A model generated the notes under the pieces. It worked only from the letters and a program-made list of their open reading frames with translations, made no database searches and was not told the origin of the DNA. Shown piece by piece: positions 40,472 through 52,274 of a stretch of 64,000 nt of DNA. The stretch lies in NCBI GenBank assembly GCA_017466865.1, contig JAFTTI010000021.1, positions 293,863 through 357,862 of the forward strand, given 5' to 3'. Each line of letters starts with the position of its first letter. The stretch's first letter is position 1. The position numbers and the translations under genes are program-made. This DNA is from Oscillospiraceae bacterium. Its GTDB lineage: Bacteria > Bacillota > Clostridia > Oscillospirales > Ruminococcaceae.

Positions 40472-41683
40472 ATGAAGTATCTTGTTCTTCTCTGCGACGG
40501 TATGGCTGACTATCCCGTTGAAGAACTCGGAAACAGAACACCTATGGAATGTGCTGAAAAGCCTTTTATGGATAAACTTGCGAAAAAATCAAAGGTGGGT
40601 CTTGTTAAAACTGTTGCTGACGGACTTAAACCCGGAAGTGATGTTGCTAACCTTTCTGTTTTAGGTTATGACCCTATGGTATGCTATACAGGGCGTTCTC
40701 CTTTGGAAGCGGGTTCTATTGGAATTGATATGGCTGATGATGATGTTTCATTCAGATGCAATCTTGTTACTGTTTCTGACGAAGAAAAATATGAGGATAA
40801 AACTCTCATTGACTACTGCGCTGATGATATATCAACAGCAGAAGCAAAAGAACTCATAGAGTTCCTCGCAAAAGAATTTGATAACGAAGAATTTAATTTA
40901 TATAGTGGCGTAAGTTATCGTCATTGCCTTATCTGGCATAAGGGAACACTTGACCTCGGCAGTCTCACACCTCCTCATGACATCACAGGAAGAAAGGTTA
41001 CTGAATATGTTCCTATGCACGAAAATGCACAGAAACTCTATGAAATGATGAAGAAGTCTTATGACCTCTTGAAAGACCATCCCGTTAACAAGGCGAGAGA
41101 AGAAAAAGGTCTTCGCCCTGCTAACTCAATGTGGTTCTGGGGAGAAGGAAAGAGAGCGGCTTTAGAACCTTTCAAGGAAAAATTCGGCGTTAAGGGCTCG
41201 ATGATTTCTGCGGTTGACCTTTTAAAAGGCATAGGCAAATTCTCTGAAATGAATGTTGTTTCGGTTGAAGGTGCAACAGGATATATCGATACAAACTTTG
41301 AAGGCAAGGCAAATGCCGCTATCAACGAATTCAAGAACGGCAGCGAACTTGTTTATGTTCATGTTGAAGCACCCGATGAATGCGGACACAGAAACGAAGT
41401 TCAGAATAAGGTTAAATCAATAGGCCTTATAGACAAACTTATTTTAGACCCTGTTCTTTCTTACCTTGAAAGCACAGGAGAAGATTTCAAGATTCTTATC
41501 TGTCCTGACCATCCGACACCGCTCTGCCTTAAAACTCATACAAACGATGCTGTTCCTTTTATGATTTATCATAAGAACGGTGAAGTTAATGGAGTAGACA
41601 CTTTCAACGAAAAAACAGCAGGCGAAACAGGGGTTTTTGTCGAAAAGGGACCAACTCTTATGCAGAGCTTTATAAATGGTTGA
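40472..41683 (+). CDS. ApgM-type cofactor-independent phosphoglycerate mutase / proposed homoserine kinase
   Basis: A 403-residue alkaline-phosphatase-superfamily enzyme. YLVLLCDGMADYPVEELGNRTPMECA gives the first metal Asp, and GLKPGSDVANLSVLGYDP carries the nucleophile Ser near residue 60. GATGYIDTNFEGKANAA, YVHVEAPDECGHR and LICPDHPTPLCLKTHTNDAVPF supply the later metal ligands. This is the archaeal-type (ApgM) form. A subset in anaerobes lacking ThrB is annotated as a proposed homoserine kinase, so the substrate is open: 2/3-phosphoglycerate or homoserine. No threonine genes are adjacent to tip the balance. GGAGGGG precedes ATG. The purE promoter starts within its stop codon. Confidence 0.85.
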   Translation: MKYLVLLCDGMADYPVEELGNRTPMECAEKPFMDKLAKKSKVGLVKTVADGLKPGSDVANLSVLGYDPMVCYTGRSPLEAGSIGIDMADDDVSFRCNLVTVSDEEKYEDKTLIDYCADDISTAEAKELIEFLAKEFDNEEFNLYSGVSYRHCLIWHKGTLDLGSLTPPHDITGRKVTEYVPMHENAQKLYEMMKKSYDLLKDHPVNKAREEKGLRPANSMWFWGEGKRAALEPFKEKFGVKGSMISAVDLLKGIGKFSEMNVVSVEGATGYIDTNFEGKANAAINEFKNGSELVYVHVEAPDECGHRNEVQNKVKSIGLIDKLILDPVLSYLESTGEDFKILICPDHPTPLCLKTHTNDAVPFMIYHKNGEVNGVDTFNEKTAGETGVFVEKGPTLMQSFING

Positions 41684-41708
41684 TTTTAGTTTTGAAATAT
41701 AGTAAAAT
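41680..41708 (+). promoter_or_regulatory. promoter of the purine operon
   Basis: TTGATT (41680-41685), 17 nt, TAAAAT (41703-41708). It overlaps the stop codon of the preceding gene. Confidence 0.6.
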
Positions 41709-41750
41709 AGGGGTATAGCTTTTATAGCGACTTTAAAAGGGGTGAATGAT

Positions 41751-41834
41751 ATGCATTCTGTAACAGGGAAACATTACTGCTTTTACGGTTACGGGTTAAG
41801 TGCATATTTACGCCATTATAAGCAAACCTTGTAA
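41751..41834 (+). CDS. 27-residue leader peptide upstream of purE
   Basis: A short reading frame with a good ribosome-binding site (AAAGGGGTG at 41736-41744, 6 nt before ATG). The product starts MHSVTGKHYC, contains FYGYGLSAYLRHY, and ends QTL; it is rich in Tyr (5), His (3) and Gly (3). The stop codon (41832-41834) lies 4 nt before the 5' arm of a strong intrinsic terminator, so a ribosome at the stop would cover the hairpin. ATATGCA over the start codon (41749-41755) can pair with TGCATAT (41801-41807). I read it as a regulatory leader peptide, not a functional protein; I do not recognise its family. Confidence 0.6.
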   Translation: MHSVTGKHYCFYGYGLSAYLRHYKQTL

Positions 41835-41838
41835 AATG

Positions 41839-41879
41839 AATAGCTGCGGATGGATTTTCGCAGCTATTTTTGATTTTTT
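41839..41879 (+). terminator. intrinsic terminator (attenuator) before purE
   Basis: AATAGCTGCG (41839-41848) pairs perfectly with CGCAGCTATT (41859-41868), followed by TTTGATTTTTT. It lies between the leader peptide and purE, within the operon leader. Confidence 0.85.
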
Positions 41880-41916
41880 AAAACACACCAAGAACTCTTG
41901 ACGGAGGTAGAAAAGT

Positions 41917-42414
41917 ATGAAAAAGATTGCAATAATTATGGGAAGCGACAGCGATTTTCCCGTTGTTAAGGACGCTGCTATTGAACTCAAAAAACTCGGT
42001 ATTCCCTATGAAGTGAGAGTAATGTCGGCACACAGAACTCCTGATATGGCTGCTGAATTTTCAAAGAATGCTGAAAAGAACGGATTTGGTGCTATCATCG
42101 CGGCAGCAGGAATGGCTGCACATTTAGGTGGCGTTTTAGCGGCACACACAATCCTTCCTGTAATTGCTATTCCTATAAGCGGATCAAGACTTGACGGAAT
42201 GGACGCACTCCTTGCAACAGTTCAGATGCCCAAGGGTATCCCCGTTGCGACAGTTGCTATAAACGGTGCAGGAAACGCAGCGATACTTGCAGCACAGATG
42301 CTTGCACTTTCAGATAACGAAATTGCAGACAAGCTCCGCAAGATGAAAGAAGATATGGTTGCGGGTGTTATTGAAAAGGATAAGAAACTTCAGGAAGAAG
42401 TTGCCAAGCTTTAA
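41917..42414 (+). CDS. purE: 5-(carboxyamino)imidazole ribonucleotide mutase
   Basis: A 165-residue PurE converting N5-CAIR (or AIR plus CO2) to CAIR. IIMGSDSDFPVV is the phosphate loop, VMSAHRTPDM holds the catalytic His near residue 43, AAAGMAAHLGGVLAAHT is the second loop, and VQMPKGIPVATVAINGAGNAAILA closes the active site. The SAHRTP and VQMPxGxPVATVAI forms favour class I (N5-CAIR mutase, which needs PurK), but PurK is not in the window. GGAGGT lies 9 nt before ATG. It is the first structural gene of the purine operon, behind the attenuator. Confidence 0.95.
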   Translation: MKKIAIIMGSDSDFPVVKDAAIELKKLGIPYEVRVMSAHRTPDMAAEFSKNAEKNGFGAIIAAAGMAAHLGGVLAAHTILPVIAIPISGSRLDGMDALLATVQMPKGIPVATVAINGAGNAAILAAQMLALSDNEIADKLRKMKEDMVAGVIEKDKKLQEEVAKL

Positions 42415-42432: not shown

Positions 42433-43308
42433 ATGATAAATGTCGGAATGGGCGCAGTTTTTGCACTTGGTCTTTTAGGGATAATGGCTGCTATGATAAT
42501 CGGGGCTTCGGTTGTGTTCTTTATCATCTCGATGATTTTTCTCGGTTTCTGGATTCACAGAAAAGTAAATAAACTTGATTATCAGAAAGTTTTTAAAGTT
42601 TCATTTATCATATATCTCCTGCTGTCGATAACGGTTGTAGGTGTTCCTGTCGGATGCGTAGGAATTACGATGGCTGATTTTGCGGTAGAAAGAAATACTC
42701 CTCCCGAAGATTATATCGACCCCGGCGTTGAACTTTCTGTAACGGATTCTGAAATAGATGATGCGAGAGGATTCTATCTCGACGGTGTTTTCTATAAGAG
42801 GATGAGCTATGATTTCTATGAATACCGTGAGGATGAAGTTCCGATAGCGAAAGTTAAGGATGAATTCAGGAATATCTATGAAGTTAAAAACGCATCGGGT
42901 AAAAGGCTTTTAAGATACAGAGGATATATATACTGTAAAGAAAGTGATATGGAGTTTTTGGAAAAATTCTATACAACGCTCGATGATTACGATTATTATT
43001 TCTATGCCTATAAAGGCGAAAAGATGAAGATAGACGATTTTTTGGATAAAGAATTTAATCTGACTGCAAACGCTTATGGCGCTTCGTCTGGCGTTCCCGA
43101 CGGGACAAAATATTACTACATAGAAAAACGCTCTCCCGATGGGGTTTATTCACTGAAGATAGATATATGCGTTACCCCTTCTTATGAGGTTTATAAATCG
43201 TCAGGAAGTTATAGTTATGATCTGAGAAATGAAGAACTTGAGAGAAAACTCAAGAATTATGCAATAAAATATAAGCATAATTACGATGAAGATTTAACGG
43301 AAGAGTAA
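42433..43308 (+). CDS. hypothetical membrane protein (paralogue 1) inside the pur operon
   Basis: A 291-residue protein with two N-terminal transmembrane helices (about residues 8-45 and 57-80), separated by the short charged loop GFWIHRKVNKLDYQKVFKVS. A C-terminal domain of about 200 residues follows, rich in Tyr, Asp, Glu and Lys, probably extracellular. The segment FFIISMIFLGFWIHRKVNKL and the following stretch are almost identical to the next gene, so the two are tandem duplicates. It starts 18 nt after purE and is clearly on the same transcript. No enzyme motif is visible and I know of no purine function. It may be a host-specific insertion carried along in the operon. Confidence 0.65.
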   Translation: MINVGMGAVFALGLLGIMAAMIIGASVVFFIISMIFLGFWIHRKVNKLDYQKVFKVSFIIYLLLSITVVGVPVGCVGITMADFAVERNTPPEDYIDPGVELSVTDSEIDDARGFYLDGVFYKRMSYDFYEYREDEVPIAKVKDEFRNIYEVKNASGKRLLRYRGYIYCKESDMEFLEKFYTTLDDYDYYFYAYKGEKMKIDDFLDKEFNLTANAYGASSGVPDGTKYYYIEKRSPDGVYSLKIDICVTPSYEVYKSSGSYSYDLRNEELERKLKNYAIKYKHNYDEDLTEE

Positions 43309-43323
43309 TTCGGGAGATTTATT

Positions 43324-44187
43324 ATGATTATAGCAAATGTCGGATTCTGGGCGTTTATCGGCGGAATTATTTTGGCGGCTCTGGGTTTTGTAGTTGCGGT
43401 TATTTCTGCTGTTTCGACTACATTTTTCATTATCTCTATGATTTTTCTCGGATTCTGGATTCACAGAAAAGTAAACAAACTCGATTATCAGAAAGTCTTT
43501 AAGGTTTCGTTTATAATCTATCTTTCGCTTTCGATACTTACCGTTGTTGTTCCTGCTACATATGCGGCTGTGAGTGTTTCTCAGATGTTAGGTCCGGATG
43601 AAAAATATGTTGATACGGGTGTTGAAACGGAAGTAGATAATGATAGTTTTATTCTTGACGGAGTGAGATATAACGAGATAAATTGGTCATATTATCCGGG
43701 ATTTACAAACGCGAATTACGAAAAGACACCTGTTGCAAATGCAAAAGGTAAAAAAATGAATATATATGAAATCAAAAACGATTCTGGTAAAAGACTTCTG
43801 GAATATAACGGGTTTGTGCACTGTTCATCAGAAGATTATGATTATATTACCAGTTATTACGAAAATCGTACAGACTGCAATTTTTATCTTGTATCAGATG
43901 ATAAACAGGTTAAGATAGAAGGCTTTTCAAACGGATATTTTGAAAGAATAGAGACTATTGAAGAAACAGATACGGAATTTGTTGAATCAGAAACCGAAGA
44001 AATATCAGATGGAACAAGATACAAAATAGTCAGAGAATCTCCTGATAAGGCTTACAAAGAAGAAAAAGATATTGTTTTTCTACATGGCAGGGTTTATCAT
44101 AGCAGGAGCTGGCCTTATTATCATCTCGGCAATAAAGAATTTGAAGATAAACTTATAAAGTATATTGAAGAACTGAACAAACAATAA
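43324..44187 (+). CDS. hypothetical membrane protein (paralogue 2) inside the pur operon
   Basis: A 287-residue paralogue of the preceding protein: same two N-terminal helices with FFIISMIFLGFWIHRKVNKL, then a diverged soluble domain. Shared landmarks in that domain are the YVDTGVETEV/YIDPGVELSV start, FILDGVRYNEI/FYLDGVFYKRM, NIYEIKNDSGKRLLEYNGFVHC/NIYEVKNASGKRLLRYRGYIYC, and SPDKAYKEEKDIV/SPDGVYSLKIDIC. The soluble halves have diverged far more than the membrane part, suggesting selection for different outside partners or gene conversion of the anchor. The gap to purF is 35 nt. Function unknown. Confidence 0.65.
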   Translation: MIIANVGFWAFIGGIILAALGFVVAVISAVSTTFFIISMIFLGFWIHRKVNKLDYQKVFKVSFIIYLSLSILTVVVPATYAAVSVSQMLGPDEKYVDTGVETEVDNDSFILDGVRYNEINWSYYPGFTNANYEKTPVANAKGKKMNIYEIKNDSGKRLLEYNGFVHCSSEDYDYITSYYENRTDCNFYLVSDDKQVKIEGFSNGYFERIETIEETDTEFVESETEEISDGTRYKIVRESPDKAYKEEKDIVFLHGRVYHSRSWPYYHLGNKEFEDKLIKYIEELNKQ

Positions 44188-44222: not shown

Positions 44223-45644
44223 ATGGGCGGATTTTTTGGTGCTGTTTCAAAAAATGACTGCGTAACCGATGTATTTTTCGGAACAGACTATCATTCGCAT
44301 CTCGGAACTAAAAGAGGCGGTATGACCTCTTATTCCGAAAGCAAGGGTTTTCAGAGAAGTATTCACAGCATTGAAAACTCACCTTTTCGAACAAAGTTTG
44401 AGAAGGATGTAGAAGGAATGGAGGGTAATATCTGTATAGGCGCTATATGCGACGCAGACCCACAGCCTATCCTTGTAAGGTCGAGATTCGGAAGCTATGC
44501 TATCTGTACTATTGGTATCATAAACAATGCCGAAGAACTTTCAAAGGAACTACTTGAAAACGGATGTCTTAACTTTGAAACAATGAGTAGCGGAAACATA
44601 AATTCCGCGTCACTCATAGGTGCACTTATAGCACAGAAACCCACTTTTAAAGATGGTATCAAATACGCGCAGGAAAGAATAGACGGAACACTCTCACTTC
44701 TTATCATAACAAAAAGTTATATGATAGCATCAAGAGATAAACACGGAAGACTTCCTATAATAATCGGAAAAAGAGATGACGGTTACTGCGTTTCACTTGA
44801 ATCGTTCGCATTCCAGAAACTCGGCTATGAAACCGAAAGGGAAATGAAGCCTGGTGAAATTGTAAAAATCAAGGCTGACGGCGTTGAAACAATTTCAGAG
44901 GGAACAGACGAAATGCAGATATGTTCTTTCTTATGGACATATTACGGATACCCCAATGCAGTTTACGAAGGCGTTACCGTTGAAACAATGAGAACAAGAA
45001 ACGGCGAGATAATGGCCGAAAACGACATCAAGAACGGAACATTACCCGATGTTGACTTTGTATGTGGTGTTCCTGATTCAGGCGTTCCTCACGCGATAGG
45101 ATATGCAAACAAGAGTGGTATTCCTTTTGCAAGACCGTTTATCAAATACACACCTACATGGCCTCGTAGCTTTATGCCACAGAGTCAGAAGATGAGAAGC
45201 CATGTTGCCAAAATGAAACTCATTCCTGTTCATGAACTTATCGAAGGAAAGAAACTTCTTTTCGTTGACGATAGTATCGTAAGAGGAACACAACTCAGAG
45301 AAACGGTTGAATTTCTTTATGCACACGGCGCTAAAGAGGTTCATATGCGTTCGGCTTGTCCTCCTATTATGTATGGATGTAAGTTTCTTAACTTCTCGAG
45401 AAGCAACTCTGAAATGGAACTTATCGCAAGACAGATAATCCATGAGTTTGAAGGAGAAGAGGGTGCAAAATATATCGCAGAGTATAGTGATACAAGCACA
45501 GAAAGAGGAAAGAAGTTAAGAAAAGCAATATGCGAAAAACTTAAACTTACCTCACTTGAATATCAGTCGCTCGAGGGAACTGTAAAGGCGATAGGTCTTC
45601 CTGAATGCAAACTCTGCACATACTGCTGGAACGGCAAGGAATAA
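44223..45644 (+). CDS. purF: amidophosphoribosyltransferase homologue lacking the N-terminal Cys
   Basis: A 473-residue PurF that should make phosphoribosylamine from PRPP. The phosphoribosyltransferase half is intact: the PRPP loop is KLLFVDDSIVRGTQL near residue 350, with CGVPDSGVPHAIGYA and the closing CKLCTYCWNG. The glutaminase half begins MGGFFGAVSKNDC and carries GTDYHSHLGTKRGGMTSY. In standard PurF the N-terminus is (M)CGIFG, with Cys as the glutamine nucleophile; here Gly stands at that place. It may therefore use free ammonia or ammonia from a partner. I recall similar MGGFFG proteins annotated as PurF in other anaerobes, so this is probably a genuine subfamily and not an error. Position in the pur operon supports the assigned pathway. 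Confidence 0.85.
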   Translation: MGGFFGAVSKNDCVTDVFFGTDYHSHLGTKRGGMTSYSESKGFQRSIHSIENSPFRTKFEKDVEGMEGNICIGAICDADPQPILVRSRFGSYAICTIGIINNAEELSKELLENGCLNFETMSSGNINSASLIGALIAQKPTFKDGIKYAQERIDGTLSLLIITKSYMIASRDKHGRLPIIIGKRDDGYCVSLESFAFQKLGYETEREMKPGEIVKIKADGVETISEGTDEMQICSFLWTYYGYPNAVYEGVTVETMRTRNGEIMAENDIKNGTLPDVDFVCGVPDSGVPHAIGYANKSGIPFARPFIKYTPTWPRSFMPQSQKMRSHVAKMKLIPVHELIEGKKLLFVDDSIVRGTQLRETVEFLYAHGAKEVHMRSACPPIMYGCKFLNFSRSNSEMELIARQIIHEFEGEEGAKYIAEYSDTSTERGKKLRKAICEKLKLTSLEYQSLEGTVKAIGLPECKLCTYCWNGKE

Positions 45645-45683
45645 GTTTAAAACATTATGATAATAAATGAAAGGAAAGATAAT

Positions 45684-46718
45684 ATGAAAAGTTTTTCAGA
45701 CAGTTATAAGGACGCAGGCGTTGATGTTACTGCGGGTTACAAATCAGTTGAACTTATGAAAGCACATGTTGCAAGAACAAAGACAGAAGGCGTTATGTCA
45801 GGTATCGGCGGATTCGGCGGATTATTCGCACTCGGATGCAAGGATATGGAAGACCCTGTTCTTGTTTCGGGAACAGACGGAGTAGGAACAAAGATAAAGA
45901 TCGCTTTTCTTATGGACAAGCACGATACAGTTGGTATCGACTGTGTTGCTATGTGTGTAAACGATGTTATCTGCTGTGGTGCAAGTCCTCTTTTCTTCCT
46001 CGATTATATCGCCTGCGGAAAGAACTATCCCGAAAAGATTGCTGAAATCGTTTCAGGTGTTGCTGAAGGATGTGTTCAGGCTGAATGTGCTTTAATCGGC
46101 GGTGAAACAGCAGAACACCCGGGTCTTATGCCCGATGATGAATACGACCTTGCAGGTTTCTCGGTTGGCGTTGTTGACAGACCTAAGATTTTAAATCCCG
46201 AAAGCCAGAAGGCAGGGGATGTTATGATCGCTATCAAGTCAAGCGGTGTTCATTCAAACGGATTTTCACTTGTAAGAAAGGTTTTTGATGTGAACGAAGA
46301 AAACCTTTCAAAATACTATGACGAACTTGGCGCTACACTCGGTGAAACACTCCTCACTCCTACAAGAATCTATGTAAAGGCTGTTAAGAGTCTTCTTGAT
46401 TCAGTTAAGGTTAAGTCAATCTCACACATCACAGGTGGCGGATTCTACGAAAATATCCCAAGAGCGCTTCCTGAAGGACTTTCAGTAAAGATAAACAGAG
46501 CAGACGTTAAGGTTCTTCCTATTTTCGAACTTATCGCTAAGGTCGGAAACATTCCTGAAAGAGATATGTTCAACACATTCAACATGGGCGTTGGTATGAC
46601 AGTTGTTGTTGACAAGGCAGACGTTGATGCGGCTATCAAGGCTATTGAAGCGGCAGGAGACGAAGCTTATGTTTTAGGCGAACTCTTTGACGGCGATGAC
46701 GGCGTTGTTATCAACTGA
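45684..46718 (+). CDS. purM: phosphoribosylformylglycinamidine cyclo-ligase (AIR synthetase)
   Basis: A 344-residue PurM closing the imidazole ring of AIR with [23 protein letters not shown] at the start, [84 protein letters not shown] and [13 protein letters not shown] are the family blocks. ATG at 45684 is chosen because AAGGAAAG lies about 6 nt before it; an ATG at 45657 in the same frame has no such site. It lies between purF and purN with short gaps. Codons are biased as in the whole pur cluster. Confidence 0.96.
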
Positions 46719-46729
46719 GGTGAACTGAT

Positions 46730-47356
46730 ATGAAAAATATTGCAGTTCTCGTTTCAGGCGGAGGGACAAACCTTCAGGCGCTTATCGACGCTGAAAAAAG
46801 AGGGGAAACAGGAAACGGAAAAATTACCTGTGTAATCTCCTCGAAAGAAGACGCCTATGCTCTTGAAAGAGCAAAGAACAACGGCATAAAAACTATTGTT
46901 CTTAAAAGAAAGGATTACCCCGATGTAGCGTCTTACAGCAAGGCTATGGCAGAAACTTTGAAGGCAGAAAATGCTGACCTTGTTGTTTATGCGGGATTTA
47001 TGACAATCCTTGATGAACAGGTATGTAATGCATTCCCTTATAAAATGATAAATGTTCACCCCGCGCTTATCCCTTCATTCTGCGGAAAAGGTTTTTACGG
47101 GCTTCATGTTCACGAAGCCGCACTCGCAAAGGGAGTAAAACTCAGCGGCGCTACTGTTCATTTTGTAACCGAAGAATGTGACGGAGGACCTATCATCCTC
47201 CAGAAAGCCGTTGAAGTTAAAAACGGCGATACACCCGAAACTTTACAGAAAAGAATTATGGAAGAGGCTGAGTGGAAGATACTCCCTTATGCTGTAAAAC
47301 TTTTCTGTGATGACAAAATAGAAATAAGAGACGGCAAAGCTGTCGTTTCGGAATAA
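46730..47356 (+). CDS. purN: phosphoribosylglycinamide formyltransferase
   Basis: A 208-residue folate-dependent GAR transformylase. VLVSGGGTNLQALID is the phosphate loop; VYAGFMTIL, the catalytic Asn-His pair in MINVHPALIPSFCGKGFYGLHVHEAA, and Asp in EECDGGPIIL complete the active site. The length is normal. It lies 11 nt after purM and 15 nt before the IMP cyclohydrolase gene. No alternative formate-dependent PurT is present in the window. Confidence 0.95.
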   Translation: MKNIAVLVSGGGTNLQALIDAEKRGETGNGKITCVISSKEDAYALERAKNNGIKTIVLKRKDYPDVASYSKAMAETLKAENADLVVYAGFMTILDEQVCNAFPYKMINVHPALIPSFCGKGFYGLHVHEAALAKGVKLSGATVHFVTEECDGGPIILQKAVEVKNGDTPETLQKRIMEEAEWKILPYAVKLFCDDKIEIRDGKAVVSE

Positions 47357-47371
47357 GAAAGGAAAGTTGCT

Positions 47372-48082
47372 ATGAGAAACATTGCAGAAGAACTCCAGAG
47401 CCTTGAATACCACGGAAGAGGCATCATCCTCGGCAAATCAACAGATGGTAAGAAAGCAGTTATCGCTTATTTCATTATGGGAAGAAGCGAAAACAGCCGT
47501 AACAGAGTTTTTGTTACAGACGGTGACGGAATCAGAACACAGGCTTTCGATGAATCAAAGATGGTTGACCCACACCTTATCATCTACGCACCAGTAAGAG
47601 TTCTTGGAAACAAGACTATCGTTACAAACGGTGACCAGACAGACACTATCTATGAAGGTATGGACAAGCAGCTTACCTTTGAACAGTCACTCAGAACAAG
47701 AGAATTTGAAGATGACAAGCCCAACTTCACACCAAGAATTTCAGGTATCATTCATCTTGAAAACGGCGGAATGAATATGGCTATGTCAATCCTCAAGAGT
47801 GATGACGGCGACGACGCTTGTTGTATCAGAAACACATTTGCTTACAGCAATCCAAAAGCAGGCGAAGCAAGATTTATCCATACATACAAGGCAGCGGGAA
47901 ATCCTCTTCCAAGTTTTGAAGGCGAACCCAAGAAGCTTTCTGTTCCTGATATGGACATTGACGCTTTCACAAACTATGTATGGGAAAACCTCAACGAAGA
48001 AAACAAGGTTTCACTCTTCACAAGATACATCGACCTTGAAACAGGCAAGTTTGAATCAAGAATAGTAAACAAAAACGTTTAA
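47372..48082 (+). CDS. purO: IMP cyclohydrolase (stand-alone, PurO-like family)
   Basis: A 236-residue protein of the stand-alone IMP cyclohydrolase family (COG3363/PF07826 type), which closes the second purine ring to give IMP. The start EELQSLEYHGRGIILGKSTDGKKAVIAYFIMGRSENSRNRVF is typical, followed by HLIIYAPVRV, NGDQTDTIYEG and TPRISGIIHLENG. Most bacteria use the N-terminal domain of PurH for this step; here it is a separate gene of the archaeal-type family next to a PurH-like formyltransferase that lacks that domain. The two genes, 19 nt apart, together replace PurH. Confidence 0.85.
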   Translation: MRNIAEELQSLEYHGRGIILGKSTDGKKAVIAYFIMGRSENSRNRVFVTDGDGIRTQAFDESKMVDPHLIIYAPVRVLGNKTIVTNGDQTDTIYEGMDKQLTFEQSLRTREFEDDKPNFTPRISGIIHLENGGMNMAMSILKSDDGDDACCIRNTFAYSNPKAGEARFIHTYKAAGNPLPSFEGEPKKLSVPDMDIDAFTNYVWENLNEENKVSLFTRYIDLETGKFESRIVNKNV

Positions 48083-48101
48083 CAGAAAAGGAGAAAGAAT
48101 T

Positions 48102-49277
48102 ATGAGCAAGGAACTCGAACTCAAATATGGTTGTAACCCCAACCAGAAACCCGCTAAAATCTTTACAGCAAACTGTGATCTTCCTATTGAAGTTCTCAAC
48201 GGAAAGCCAGGCTACATCAACTTTATGGACGCTTTCAACGGCTGGCAGCTTGTTAAGGAACTTAAAGAAGCAACAGGTCTTCCTGCTGCAACATCTTTCA
48301 AGCACGTTTCACCCGCAGGTGCTGCTGTAGGCGTTCCCCTTTCAGACACACTCAAGAAAATCTACTTTGTTGATGACCTCGAACTTTCACCCCTCGCTTG
48401 TGCTTATGCAAGAGCAAGAGGAGCTGACAGAATGTCATCTTACGGTGATTTTGTAGCACTTTCAGATGTATGCGATAAGGAAACTGCTCTTATGCTCAAG
48501 AGAGAAGTTTCAGACGGCGTTATCGCTCCCGGATACACAGACGAAGCACTTGAAATCCTCAAGTCAAAGAGAAAGGGTACATACAACATCATCAAGATTG
48601 ATGAAAACTACAAGCCCGATCCTATCGAACACAAGCAGGTTTTCGGTATCACATTTGAACAGGGAAGAAACGAAATCAAGTTCGGCGATGACACATTCGC
48701 AAACATGGTAACAGAAAACAAGAACCTTCCCGAAGAAGCAAAGAGAGACCTTATCATCGCTCTCATCACACTCAAATACACACAGTCAAACAGCGTTTGC
48801 TATGCAAGAGATGGTCAGGCAATCGGTATCGGTGCAGGTCAGCAGTCAAGAATTCACTGCACAAGACTTGCAGGTAACAAGGCTAATAACTGGTGGCTTC
48901 GTCAGAACCCCAAGGTTTTAGGTCTTCAGTTTGTTGACAATATCGGCCGTCCTGACAGAGATAACGCTATCGATGTTTATATTTCTGACGAATACGAAGA
49001 TGTTCTTGCTGACGGAACATGGCAGACAATCTTCAAGGTTAAGCCTGAAGTTTTCACAAAGGAAGAACAGAAGGAATGGCTCACAAAGCTTGACAAGGTT
49101 TCACTCGGTTCAGACGCTTTCTTCCCATTCGGTGACAACATCGAAAGAGCACATAAGACAGGCGTTGAATACATTGTTGAACCAGGTGGATCTATCCGTG
49201 ATGACCATGTAATCGAAACATGCAACAAGTATGGTATCGCTATGGCATTCAACGGAATGAGACTTTTCCATCACTAA
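48102..49277 (+). CDS. purH: AICAR formyltransferase (PurH transformylase domain only)
   Basis: A 391-residue protein corresponding to the AICAR transformylase domain of PurH, without the roughly 200-residue cyclohydrolase domain. ELKYGCNPNQKPAKIF, ATSFKHVSPAGAAVG with the Lys-His catalytic pair, AYARARGADRMSSYGDFVAL, YTQSNSVCYARDGQAIGIGAGQQSRIHC and the terminal YIVEPGGSIRDDHVIETCNKYGIAMAFNGMRLFHH are the family blocks. It makes FAICAR from AICAR and 10-formyl-THF, which the upstream PurO-like enzyme then cyclises. Strong codon bias (C-ending codons) suggests high expression. A stem-loop follows the stop. Confidence 0.92.
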   Translation: MSKELELKYGCNPNQKPAKIFTANCDLPIEVLNGKPGYINFMDAFNGWQLVKELKEATGLPAATSFKHVSPAGAAVGVPLSDTLKKIYFVDDLELSPLACAYARARGADRMSSYGDFVALSDVCDKETALMLKREVSDGVIAPGYTDEALEILKSKRKGTYNIIKIDENYKPDPIEHKQVFGITFEQGRNEIKFGDDTFANMVTENKNLPEEAKRDLIIALITLKYTQSNSVCYARDGQAIGIGAGQQSRIHCTRLAGNKANNWWLRQNPKVLGLQFVDNIGRPDRDNAIDVYISDEYEDVLADGTWQTIFKVKPEVFTKEEQKEWLTKLDKVSLGSDAFFPFGDNIERAHKTGVEYIVEPGGSIRDDHVIETCNKYGIAMAFNGMRLFHH

Positions 49278-49286
49278 TTTTAAAAA

Positions 49287-49314
49287 TAAGGGCGGCATTT
49301 CCTTGTCGCCCTTA
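49287..49314 (+). terminator. intercistronic stem-loop
   Basis: TAAGGGCG (49287-49294) pairs with CGCCCTTA (49307-49314). The tail is not T-rich, so it is more likely an mRNA-stabilising or partial-termination element between purH and the lipoprotein genes. Confidence 0.5.
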
Positions 49315-49340
49315 AAGTCGTATTTTAAGGAGAAAGAAAA

Positions 49341-50093
49341 ATGAAAAAAATATTACTTATTTCATTAGTGGCGACGATGATGATGTCATTTACTGCTTGT
49401 ATGAAAAAAGAAGAAGTTAAAGATGAAATAACTTTTAAAACTTATATCGAAGATATAGTTCCTGAAAGAATAACAACAGAAGAAACAACAGAAGAAACAA
49501 CAACAGAAGAAACAGAAGTTGTTACAGAAGAGACCACTGAAGAAATATCACAGGGTGATACTAAAATCGAAGAATTTGCTACAAACGGATGCAAGATAAA
49601 GATTGACGAACTTAAATGGCTTGATGTAAAGGGCTATCTCGAACTTTCAAAAATGACGTCAGAAAATCCAGAGGCGGCAATTGCTCTCGAACAAAAAATG
49701 AAGGCAACTTGTGATGCCGCTTATTATTATAAGTCACTTTCGGGTGCTAATCTTACAATAGCATCAATGGAAGTCGGCGAAGCTGCAAGTCAGATGGACC
49801 TTTCTGACAATATTATTGCCGGTATGCTTGCAAGTAACCTTGAAAAAGAACTTACTCAATCGGGCGTTACATTTGTTGGTGCAGAAATGGAAAAATTCAA
49901 CGGCAACCCCAGCCTTGTTATTACTATTGAGTCACCTGCTATCATGACAGGAACTGTTGATATGAAAGCACAGATGTGTATCTTTTATGAAGGAACACAT
50001 CAGTATATGATTACATTTACATCAGAAAAGGAAAACTTCGATGAATACAAGCCTGATTTTGATGAGGTTATGGATTCAATTACATTTAACTGA
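49341..50093 (+). CDS. hypothetical lipoprotein (paralogue 1) in the pur operon
   Basis: A 250-residue predicted lipoprotein. The signal peptide LLISLVATMMMSFTAC ends in a lipobox with Cys at residue 20. A Thr/Glu repeat linker (TTEETTEETTTEETE) spans about residues 47-70. The remaining 170 residues form a domain starting with NGCKIKIDELKWLDVKGYLEL and ending with QYMITFTSEKENFDEYKPDFDEVMDSITF. The C-terminal pattern is like outer-surface proteins that measure short-time changes (PsbP/DUF1795-like), but this is only a resemblance. It is a paralogue of the next gene. It lies between purH and purD on the same strand, so it is probably co-transcribed. Function unknown. Confidence 0.68.
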   Translation: MKKILLISLVATMMMSFTACMKKEEVKDEITFKTYIEDIVPERITTEETTEETTTEETEVVTEETTEEISQGDTKIEEFATNGCKIKIDELKWLDVKGYLELSKMTSENPEAAIALEQKMKATCDAAYYYKSLSGANLTIASMEVGEAASQMDLSDNIIAGMLASNLEKELTQSGVTFVGAEMEKFNGNPSLVITIESPAIMTGTVDMKAQMCIFYEGTHQYMITFTSEKENFDEYKPDFDEVMDSITFN

Positions 50094-50114
50094 TAAGAAA
50101 AGAGGAAAATGAAA

Positions 50115-50969
50115 ATGAAGAAGATATTTATAATTTCTTTAGCAGTAATGATGCTTATTTCATTTACAGCTTGTTCAAAGAAGGAAGAACCACAGACACC
50201 TGATACAACAACCAATGCTTTAACTGAATACACACAGGATACAGAAGAAACAGAAGAAATTCCTGACGAAACAATCCCTGAAGAAACAGAAGCACCAAAG
50301 GAAACAACAACAGCTGCACCCGAAGAAACAACTGTTCCCGAAGAAACAACTGTTCCTGCGGATACAACAGCTGAAATAACAACAGCTGCTACAACAGTCG
50401 CTGAAACAACAGCTGCTACAACACAGGCAGTTTCTGCAGTTTCAACAGTCAAGGGTAATGGTTATTCATTCAAGATTGATAGTGCTAAATGGATGGATGT
50501 CAGTGCTTATATTGATGCTATCAGTAAAGAAGCTGAAAAACTTGGACAGAACAAAATAAATATAACAGCAGAACAGATCAAAGCGGCAAATGATTTTGTT
50601 TATTTCCATGGTCAGAACAGAAATGTTATTATAAATGTTGCTTCGACAAAGGTCGGAGATACATCGAACGTTGATTTTTCAAACGCTGCAATTAAGATGC
50701 TTTTCTCAGAAACTATGAGAGAACAGTATGAAAAAGTAGGTTTCACATATGTTGGAGATAAGGTTTCAAAAGTTGCAGGAAAGAATTGTTTTGTTATGAC
50801 TATTGAAGCACCTAAAAGTGTTGTAGGTGCGGCTTACGATGCAAAATCACTTGCTTATGTGTTCTTTGTAGGAGAATATCAGTATGTTATCACATACACA
50901 GCACCTAAACAAGATTTTGATACATATAAAGGCGATTTTGACGCAGTTCTTTCAACACTCGCATTTTAA
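50115..50969 (+). CDS. hypothetical lipoprotein (paralogue 2) in the pur operon
   Basis: A 284-residue lipoprotein with signal peptide and lipobox FTAC (Cys near residue 20). A long low-complexity Thr/Glu/Ala/Pro linker of about 80 residues follows, then a domain starting NGYSFKIDSAKWMDVSAYIDA and ending QYVITYTAPKQDFDTYKGDFDAVLSTLAF. The domain parallels the preceding lipoprotein. ATG at 50115 is chosen because AGAGGA is 8 nt upstream; the ATG at 50109 is too close to it. The tandem pair mirrors the tandem membrane-protein pair earlier in the operon. The linker would lift the domain through the thick cell wall. Function unknown. Confidence 0.68.
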   Translation: MKKIFIISLAVMMLISFTACSKKEEPQTPDTTTNALTEYTQDTEETEEIPDETIPEETEAPKETTTAAPEETTVPEETTVPADTTAEITTAATTVAETTAATTQAVSAVSTVKGNGYSFKIDSAKWMDVSAYIDAISKEAEKLGQNKINITAEQIKAANDFVYFHGQNRNVIINVASTKVGDTSNVDFSNAAIKMLFSETMREQYEKVGFTYVGDKVSKVAGKNCFVMTIEAPKSVVGAAYDAKSLAYVFFVGEYQYVITYTAPKQDFDTYKGDFDAVLSTLAF

Positions 50970-50993
50970 GAATAATTTTTAAGGAATGATTTT

Positions 50994-52274
50994 ATGAATA
51001 TTTTAGTAGTAGGCGGCGGCGGAAGAGAACACGCTATTATAAAGAAACTTTCTGAAAGCAGTAGGGTAGAAAAAATCTGGTGTACTCCCGGGAATGGCGG
51101 AATTTCCTGCTATGCAGAATGTTTTGATGTTGCCGCAACAGATATTGATGGTGTTCTTTCACTCGCTAAGAAACTGACACCCGATATGGTTGTTGTAGCG
51201 CCAGATGACCCTCTGGTTCTCGGTATGGTCGATGTTATGAACGAAAACGGTTTTAAAACATTTGGCCCTGACAAGGCGGCGGCTATAATCGAAGGAAGTA
51301 AGGTTTTTTCAAAGGACCTTATGAAGAAATACAACATTCCCACAGCAATGTATGAAACATTCAATGATTCTGAAAAAGCAATCACTTATATAAAGGAACA
51401 GGGAAAATACCCCGTTGTTGTTAAGGCGGATGGTCTCGCACTCGGAAAGGGTGTTGTTATCGCGATGAACGAGGCTGAGGCTGTTGACGCGGTAAATTCT
51501 ATCATGCAGGATAAGATTTTCGGAGAAAGCGGTTCTAATATCGTTATCGAAGAATTTTTGACAGGTCCTGAAGTTTCTGTTCTTTCATTCACAGATGGAA
51601 AGACAGTTGTTCCTATGATTTCTTCTATGGACCATAAGCGTGCACTTGACAATGATGAAGGACTTAACACAGGCGGAATGGGAACTGTTGCACCTAATCC
51701 GTATTACACAGCTGATATAGCAAAGGAATGTATGGATAAGATTTTTATTCCTACAATAAACGCTATGAAATCAGAGGGCAGAACATTTAAAGGTTGCCTT
51801 TATTTCGGACTTATGCTTACACCCGATGGCCCTAAGGTCATTGAATACAACTGTCGTTTCGGCGACCCTGAAACTCAGGTTGTTCTTCCTCTCCTTGATA
51901 CAGACCTTTACGACATTTTTGAAGCTATCTATGATGAAAGACTTTCAGAAGTTGATATCAAGTGGAAGGATGAAAGCTGTGCCTGTGTAATTCTTGCAAG
52001 TGGCGGATACCCCAAGAGTTATGAAAAGGGCAAGGAAATCTCAGGTCTTGACGATAAGGGTCAGGCAGACGGAGTTTTCGTTTACCACGCAGGAACAAAA
52101 CTTTCTGACGGTGTTTTCGCAACAAACGGTGGACGAGTTTTAGGTGTTACTGCAACGGGTAAAGACCTTGAAACTGCACTTTCAAACGCTTATAAGGGTG
52201 CTAAGAAAATCACTTTTGATAAGGTTCATTACAGAAACGATATCGGTAAGCGTGCACTCGCAGCACTTAAGTAA
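50994..52274 (+). CDS. purD: phosphoribosylamine-glycine ligase (GAR synthetase)
   Basis: A 426-residue ATP-grasp enzyme joining phosphoribosylamine and glycine. MNILVVGGGGREHAIIKKL is the N-terminal domain, GPDKAAAIIEGSKVFSKDLMKKYNIPTA follows, PVVVKADGLALGKGVVIA is the ATP-grasp core, DHKRALDNDEGLNTGGMGTVAPNPYY holds substrate and metal residues, and EYNCRFGDPETQVVLPLL is the catalytic loop. Length is normal. It is the last gene of the operon; a strong terminator follows. It completes the part of the pathway present here (purE, F, M, N, O, H, D); purL, purC, purB and purK must lie elsewhere. Confidence 0.96.
   Translation: MNILVVGGGGREHAIIKKLSESSRVEKIWCTPGNGGISCYAECFDVAATDIDGVLSLAKKLTPDMVVVAPDDPLVLGMVDVMNENGFKTFGPDKAAAIIEGSKVFSKDLMKKYNIPTAMYETFNDSEKAITYIKEQGKYPVVVKADGLALGKGVVIAMNEAEAVDAVNSIMQDKIFGESGSNIVIEEFLTGPEVSVLSFTDGKTVVPMISSMDHKRALDNDEGLNTGGMGTVAPNPYYTADIAKECMDKIFIPTINAMKSEGRTFKGCLYFGLMLTPDGPKVIEYNCRFGDPETQVVLPLLDTDLYDIFEAIYDERLSEVDIKWKDESCACVILASGGYPKSYEKGKEISGLDDKGQADGVFVYHAGTKLSDGVFATNGGRVLGVTATGKDLETALSNAYKGAKKITFDKVHYRNDIGKRALAALK

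Follow-up and report, generated by a model that had tools for sequence, protein, structure and literature searches.

How expression of purE is controlled at this locus is the question raised by the short ORF and terminator that precede the gene. Control of purine operons is usually explained by repressors or riboswitches. In the window, by which we mean the whole 64,000-nucleotide stretch of DNA that was analyzed, purE (41917..42414, + strand, ATG at 41917) is the first gene of the proposed regulated operon and matches TIGR01162 over its cut-off. The comparison of purE leaders described below suggests that the leader very probably is a translation-dependent attenuator, and makes RNA polymerase itself a candidate sensor of purines.

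A leader ORF meets an intrinsic terminator upstream of purE

A sequence-only reading of the locus had listed a promoter, a Shine-Dalgarno sequence, a 27-codon ORF whose stop codon lies 4 nt before a 10-bp terminator, and then purE; direct reading bore out each of these elements, all on the + strand. The sigma-70-type promoter-like site TTGATT-17-TAAAAT (41680..41708) has 9 of 12 matches. Because six such sites occur in 2 kb compared to 4.4 expected, the match is weak by itself; this one is placed directly 5´ of a strong Shine-Dalgarno sequence, and transcription probably starts at ~41715. The leader Shine-Dalgarno sequence (AAAAGGGGTGA, 41735..41745, spacing 7) precedes an ATG at 41751, and translation of the 27-codon frame (41751..41834), which is conserved in relatives as a frame and not as a peptide, gives MHSVTGKHYCFYGYGLSAYLRHYKQTL followed by the stop. 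Four nt 3´ of the stop codon begins the stem of an intrinsic terminator (41839..41879), with arms AATAGCTGCG (41839-41848) and CGCAGCTATT (41859-41868) forming a perfect 10 bp, a U-rich tail (41869-41879) and a predicted energy of -18.7 kcal/mol for 41836-41871. The purE Shine-Dalgarno sequence GGAGG follows at 41903..41907.

All of the elements listed earlier thus are real, but the list missed a predicted consensus RNA polymerase pause element, GG-GTTAAG-TG-C|A (GGGTTAAGTGCA, 41793..41804, + strand), for which the RNA 3´ end is predicted at C41803 with A41804 as the next nucleotide. It is the one GG-N6-TG-Y-R element in the window leader. This putative pause site is the most informative conserved element of the leader and provides a plausible sensor.

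The ORF-terminator layout is widespread among purE leaders

We collected 239 purE upstream regions (110 + 52 + 77 of 80 fetched; L189, L192 and L201 were dropped because no purE start could be assigned, and upstream sequence was too short for L071, L087 and L106). An intrinsic-terminator filter was passed by 144 of the 239, and 124 non-redundant leaders remained once those at least 62% identical had been taken out. Under a strict criterion (Shine-Dalgarno of at least 5, ATG or GTG start, at least 12 codons, stop at -12 to +10 of the stem), an ORF was found in 61/124 leaders, compared to 2.6 on average and at most 8 in 100 dinucleotide shuffles; at displaced pseudo-stems in the purE leaders, one to four ORFs stopped. 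With ORF length set at 12-60 codons, 59/124 purE leaders qualified versus 3/236 other terminators, which were taken from the flanks of the named loci (Fisher p = 8e-29). A looser criterion gave an ORF in 87/124 leaders, with a median length of 33 codons and a median stop-to-stem offset of -3 nt; in the remaining 37/124, purE is preceded by a terminator but no leader ORF qualified.

Six genomes represent the window's genus, five of them with a purE match (its own genome included), and leader ORF and terminator are present in 5/5 of these, with the leader stop inside the stem-loop in L005. Contig titles with the layout include Ruminococcus, Oscillospiraceae, Agathobaculum and Angelakisella, and the order holding these leaders is one we take to be Oscillospirales. 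The ORF-terminator layout at purE is not local to the window. Among 28 purE regions taken from the class but from outside the order, 11 had a terminator and none was a clear case; a loose ORF was found in 5 of the 11, with a long Shine-Dalgarno sequence only in L329. In the purA control, 3/30 upstream regions had a terminator (L246, L255 and L269; L247 had 1 nt upstream), each with a loose-criterion ORF that probably is part of an upstream gene. The guaA control covered 21 of 30 loci, with many regions ending at 225-273 nt and L361 lacking a start; 5 of the 21 regions analyzed had a terminator, and a leader ORF was found in none. Translation-dependent attenuation, as proposed from the window alone, gains support from the relatives: ORF, Shine-Dalgarno sequence and stop-at-stem are conserved far beyond chance and the peptide is not.

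purE leaders are enriched for a consensus pause layout

Motif discovery, run on the first 110 loci, returned the consensus GGCATCAGTGCACCC, with an invariant GG, six free positions, TG, a pyrimidine and a purine. Judged by its letters, this GG-N6-TG-Y-R motif has the layout of the extended consensus pause, given as G-11G-10T-3G-2Y-1G+1 in a passage of PMC6062546, and the enrichment of this layout in purE leaders is what is new here. Within 100 nt before the stem, GG-N6-TGY had 115 matches, compared to 29.7 (sd 5.9) after shuffling and 29 in antisense. The excess peaks at spacer 6 alone: with shared TGYs removed, there were 116 matches at spacer 6 versus 23, 22, 26 and 31 at spacers 4, 5, 7 and 8. 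In 65 held-out leaders, outside the motif discovery, we counted 54 matches versus 15.4 in shuffles (maximum 26), and 44 versus 8.1 (maximum 14) when a purine at +1 was required. GG-N6-TGY was densest in leaders, at 9.09/kb; downstream genes had 3.13/kb, and the sequences preceding other terminators 2.32/kb.

A purine at +1 followed 98/115 leader matches, compared to 299/683 in downstream genes (Fisher 2e-17) and 16/31 before other terminators (2e-4). This preference is partly expected, since the consensus pause has G at that position; the excess of A (56/115 versus 139/683 in downstream genes) is the more specific sign. The 91 matches in ORF leaders are followed by A (53), G (30), T (5) or C (3), and by A in the window. 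GG-N6-TGY-R lies between ribosome-binding site and stem in 56/87 ORF leaders and is absent in 31/87, and matches were fewer in the 37 ORF-less leaders (20) than in the 87 ORF leaders (95). The element reads GGGTTAAGTGCA in three genomes of the window's genus and GGGTTAGGTGCA and GGGTCAAGTGTA in one each, such that the pattern is kept in 5/5 genus genomes with a purE match despite changes. The four core positions (G, G, T and G) differed within close pairs in 3/48 cases, compared to 170/921 at other ORF positions (p = 0.03).

The predicted pauses also are distinctly placed. Only 17/93 predicted pause ends fall within 36 nt of the ORF start, where 36.6 would be expected (2000 simulations never gave fewer than 21), in line with the ribosome-binding site not yet being free of polymerase there. 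Most fall 10-60 nt 5´ of the stem, the place required for a pause that lets a ribosome load and catch up.

Other signals were considered. Hairpin-stabilized pausing was rejected, as hairpins ending 11-13 nt upstream of the 3´ end of the paused RNA were no stronger than in shuffles (-2.32 versus -2.02 kcal/mol over 99 sites, p = 0.96), and so were NusG-type TTNTTT sites, which were not enriched (41 versus 43.3 in shuffles). The value for an A-rich stretch before the stem was 0.33 in purE leaders versus 0.28 at other terminators.

Polymerase pausing might report purine shortage

In E. coli, a terminator is repressed when a stop codon lies close by (a passage of PMC4824070), and pyrBI operates through UTP-sensitive pausing and ribosome coupling (PMC10135430). 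Joined with the leader anatomy, these passages make purine-shortage pausing the simplest model, a pyrBI-type attenuator adapted to purines and sensing ATP/GTP, and on the sequence comparisons we regard this full model as evenly poised. RNA polymerase would start near 41715, transcribe the ribosome-binding site and leader ORF, and stall at 41793-41804 with a 3´ pyrimidine, awaiting a purine NTP (here ATP). With purine NTPs plentiful, the polymerase would escape before the ribosome arrives, the hairpin would form and transcription would end before purE. With purine NTPs scarce, a longer pause would allow a ribosome to initiate and close up behind the polymerase; at the stop codon, this ribosome would occlude the 5´ hairpin arm, termination would fail and the purine operon would be transcribed. 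Sequence comparison supplies the ORF, the stop at the stem, the neutral peptide, the enrichment of the pause consensus with a purine at +1, and a pause located after the ribosome-binding site clears the polymerase. The steps that would join them are pausing of the host polymerase at the element, a pause length that follows ATP/GTP, and prevention of termination by a nearby ribosome. Against the model, low purines also slow translation through its use of GTP, which might counteract the effect, and transcription and translation reportedly are loosely coupled in B. subtilis.

To date, a search of the open-licence PMC literature found no purine attenuator of this kind, which is a weak test given that subscription papers were outside its scope, and excerpts from two surveys of structured RNAs do not mention purE. 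If the model is correct, a large group of gut Firmicutes would control purine synthesis without a dedicated sensor molecule, with polymerase kinetics and a trailing ribosome sufficing for purine control. Substrate-sensing attenuation then would extend from pyrimidines to purines, transcription-translation coupling would serve control in these bacteria, and the consensus pause would gain a natural regulatory role, in what would amount to a purine twin of pyrBI that occurs widely across the window's order.

The ORF-terminator design is shared with some pyrB leaders

Among 47 pyrB upstream regions (30 + 16 + 1), a leader ORF meets a terminator in six, from three genera. These pyrL-like leaders (L273, L274, L331, L332, L333 and L381) apparently are pyrBI-type attenuators in Firmicutes. 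In L331, read by eye, the ORF runs through the terminator, as E. coli pyrL does. The last 32 nt of the pyrB leaders hold 12, 16, 19, 9 and 9 Ts, and 16 in L381 (counted by hand), compared to a mean of 8.7 (sd 3.3, maximum 21) for purE leaders; 4/6 are U-rich as in E. coli pyrL and the other two have U-runs only. Five of the six were scanned for GG-N6-TGY (all but L381), and the one match, in L333, has C at +1. Two genomes carry both kinds of leader: in G023 and G029, the pyrB leader ends in a U-rich stretch or a U-run and the purE leader (L012, L018) has GG-N6-TGY-A pauses. Because of the low T mean in the last 32 nt and the lack of a T peak in the purE leader profile, the purE leader is not itself a member of the UTP-sensing family.

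Like E. coli pyrBI (pyrL), the purE leader has an ORF that ends at an intrinsic terminator, predicted pausing between ribosome-binding site and terminator, a peptide sequence that apparently is unimportant and, as proposed sensor, the polymerase's own substrate (PMC10135430). The two differ in the operon, purine here and pyrimidine there, in the pauses, +1-purine consensus pauses (some tandem) versus a U-rich template, and in the peptide, which usually stops at the stem in purE leaders and runs through it in pyrBI. The broader reading, in which polymerase is the purine sensor through Y|R pauses, some of them tandem, across the order, with the pause chemistry swapped on a shared ORF-terminator design, falls just short of an even prospect in our judgment.

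A less likely competitor is a translation-coupled attenuator without purine-specific sensing, in which the pauses only synchronize polymerase and ribosome, ribosome supply or growth rate acts as the signal, and more translation gives more purE. The ORF-stop geometry (61/124; 59/124 versus 3/236) fits this reading equally, consensus pauses are generic elements, and pausing in a B. subtilis leader has been proposed to give leader translation time to start (a passage of PMC6851288). That system, yxjB/tlrB, resembles the model for the purE leaders in using polymerase pausing in a Firmicute so that leader translation can start, and, as described there, differs in that its signal is an antibiotic-stalled ribosome and its pauses are T-rich NusG pauses. 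What favors purine sensing over synchronization is the +1 nucleotide, where a purine, and above all A, exceeds the same-motif background (98/115 versus 299/683; A, 56/115 versus 139/683), together with the five pyrB leaders of relatives that were scanned, which share the ORF-terminator design and lack GG-N6-TGY-R pauses.

RNA structure in the leaders

Purine, PRPP and ZTP riboswitches control purine genes by premature termination, a likeness to the purE leader. Unlike them, the purE leaders scanned have no Rfam match. At gathering scores, the whole window gave two tRNAs only, and the six matches in 41600-41960 at E of at most 10 are all far below their family gathering scores. Neither the window nor the purE leaders scanned at 20 loci gave a match to a purine, PRPP, ZTP or other riboswitch, and the reported absence of purine and PRPP motifs from the window holds. 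A riboswitch or an RNA-binding-protein site, with the leader ORF incidental, nevertheless would account for the folding of the window leader, which, terminator included, is better than 200/200 shuffles (z = -4.70), and for upstream folds with z below -2 in 17/87 leaders; from these predictions, local RNA folding may contribute. We consider this explanation very unlikely given the Rfam result, the MFE folds of the ORF leaders, which include the terminator stem in 85/87, and an ORF conserved in 61/124 leaders against 2.6 expected. The same MFE folds reveal no general competing antiterminator, a statement that leaves kinetic alternatives.

The predicted fold of the window leader contains the pairing of ATATGCA with TGCATAT that had been suggested earlier as a way to seal the start codon. 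Within the genus of the window, the AUAUGCA start-codon region (41749-41755) can pair with UGCAUAU (41801-41807, approximate), overlapping the pause element; the predicted sealing is seen by reading in this genus only.

Translation of the leader ORF, not its peptide, appears to matter

The leader peptides are wholly different between genera, and dN/dS was 1.01 over 7 independent close pairs (bootstrap 0.71-5.79, with ~80 substitutions, half of them from two pairs). The comparison of relatives that the sequence-only reading had recommended hence gave a ratio of ~1.0, with frame and stop position kept and amino acids not. Because the ORF and stop layout is conserved with a dN/dS of about 1.0, translation of the leader ORF appears to matter and the peptide sequence does not. 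Relative to composition, the 87 leader peptides have Tyr at 1.07, His at 1.03 and Gly at 1.36, and part of the Gly excess can be explained by the GG in the pause motif. Together with the dN/dS of 1.01, these values speak against the suggested sensing through Tyr, His or Gly codons, and neither composition nor dN/dS revealed conserved regulatory codons across the leader peptides. Like amino-acid leader attenuators, among them the ones put forward for hisS/hisZ in Firmicutes (PMC2965389), the purE leaders have a short ORF with a Shine-Dalgarno sequence before an intrinsic terminator; unlike them, they have a neutral peptide, no regulatory codon run and no antiterminator that we found.

We give still less credence to an amino-acid attenuator or arrest peptide, in which the ribosome stalls at particular codons or through the nascent peptide. 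In-frame motif matches often read G-[IVL]-x-[AV] (an early look-alike was G-I-x-A), and the matches in ORF leaders fall into the three reading frames as 44, 24 and 23, a slight frame-0 excess (44/91, p = 0.004); this mild bias is not predicted by a purely nucleotide-level pause element. The neutral dN/dS and the lack of Tyr and His enrichment stand against stalling, as do second motif copies in other frames (for example, in L014, L016 and L074), a T ending the variable codon that is invariant by motif construction, and a motif excess that is spacer-specific at the nucleotide level. Such peptide-neutral ORFs are a warning against taking uORFs of this kind for functional small proteins.

Least probable of all is recruitment of a specialized NusG paralogue (RfaH or LoaP type) as an antiterminator at an ops-like consensus pause: the abstract of PMC5995543 names ops as an exemplar of the consensus pause, but each of the six genus genomes has one NusG match (G000 is 75% complete) and paralogues were found only in 4/26 genomes examined (G007, G013, G041 and G044).

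Genes of the purine cluster

The rest of the purine cluster lies on the + strand at 44223..52274, as assigned by NCBIfam matches. It comprises a purF-like gene (44223-45644, below the TIGR01134 cut-off), purM (45657-46718) and purN (46730-47356), both over their NCBIfam cut-offs, a purO-like IMP cyclohydrolase gene (47372-48082, below cut-off), and genes for AICAR formyltransferase (48102-49277) and purD (50994-52274), again over their NCBIfam cut-offs. At 47372-49277, the last two purine steps are represented by two separate genes, for the purO-like IMP cyclohydrolase (below cut-off) and for AICAR formyltransferase, not by a fused PurH. Two similar tandem membrane proteins without an NCBIfam match are encoded between purE and the purF-like gene (42433-44187), and two similar tandem lipoprotein-like, Thr/Glu-rich proteins are encoded between the AICAR formyltransferase gene and purD (49341-50969).
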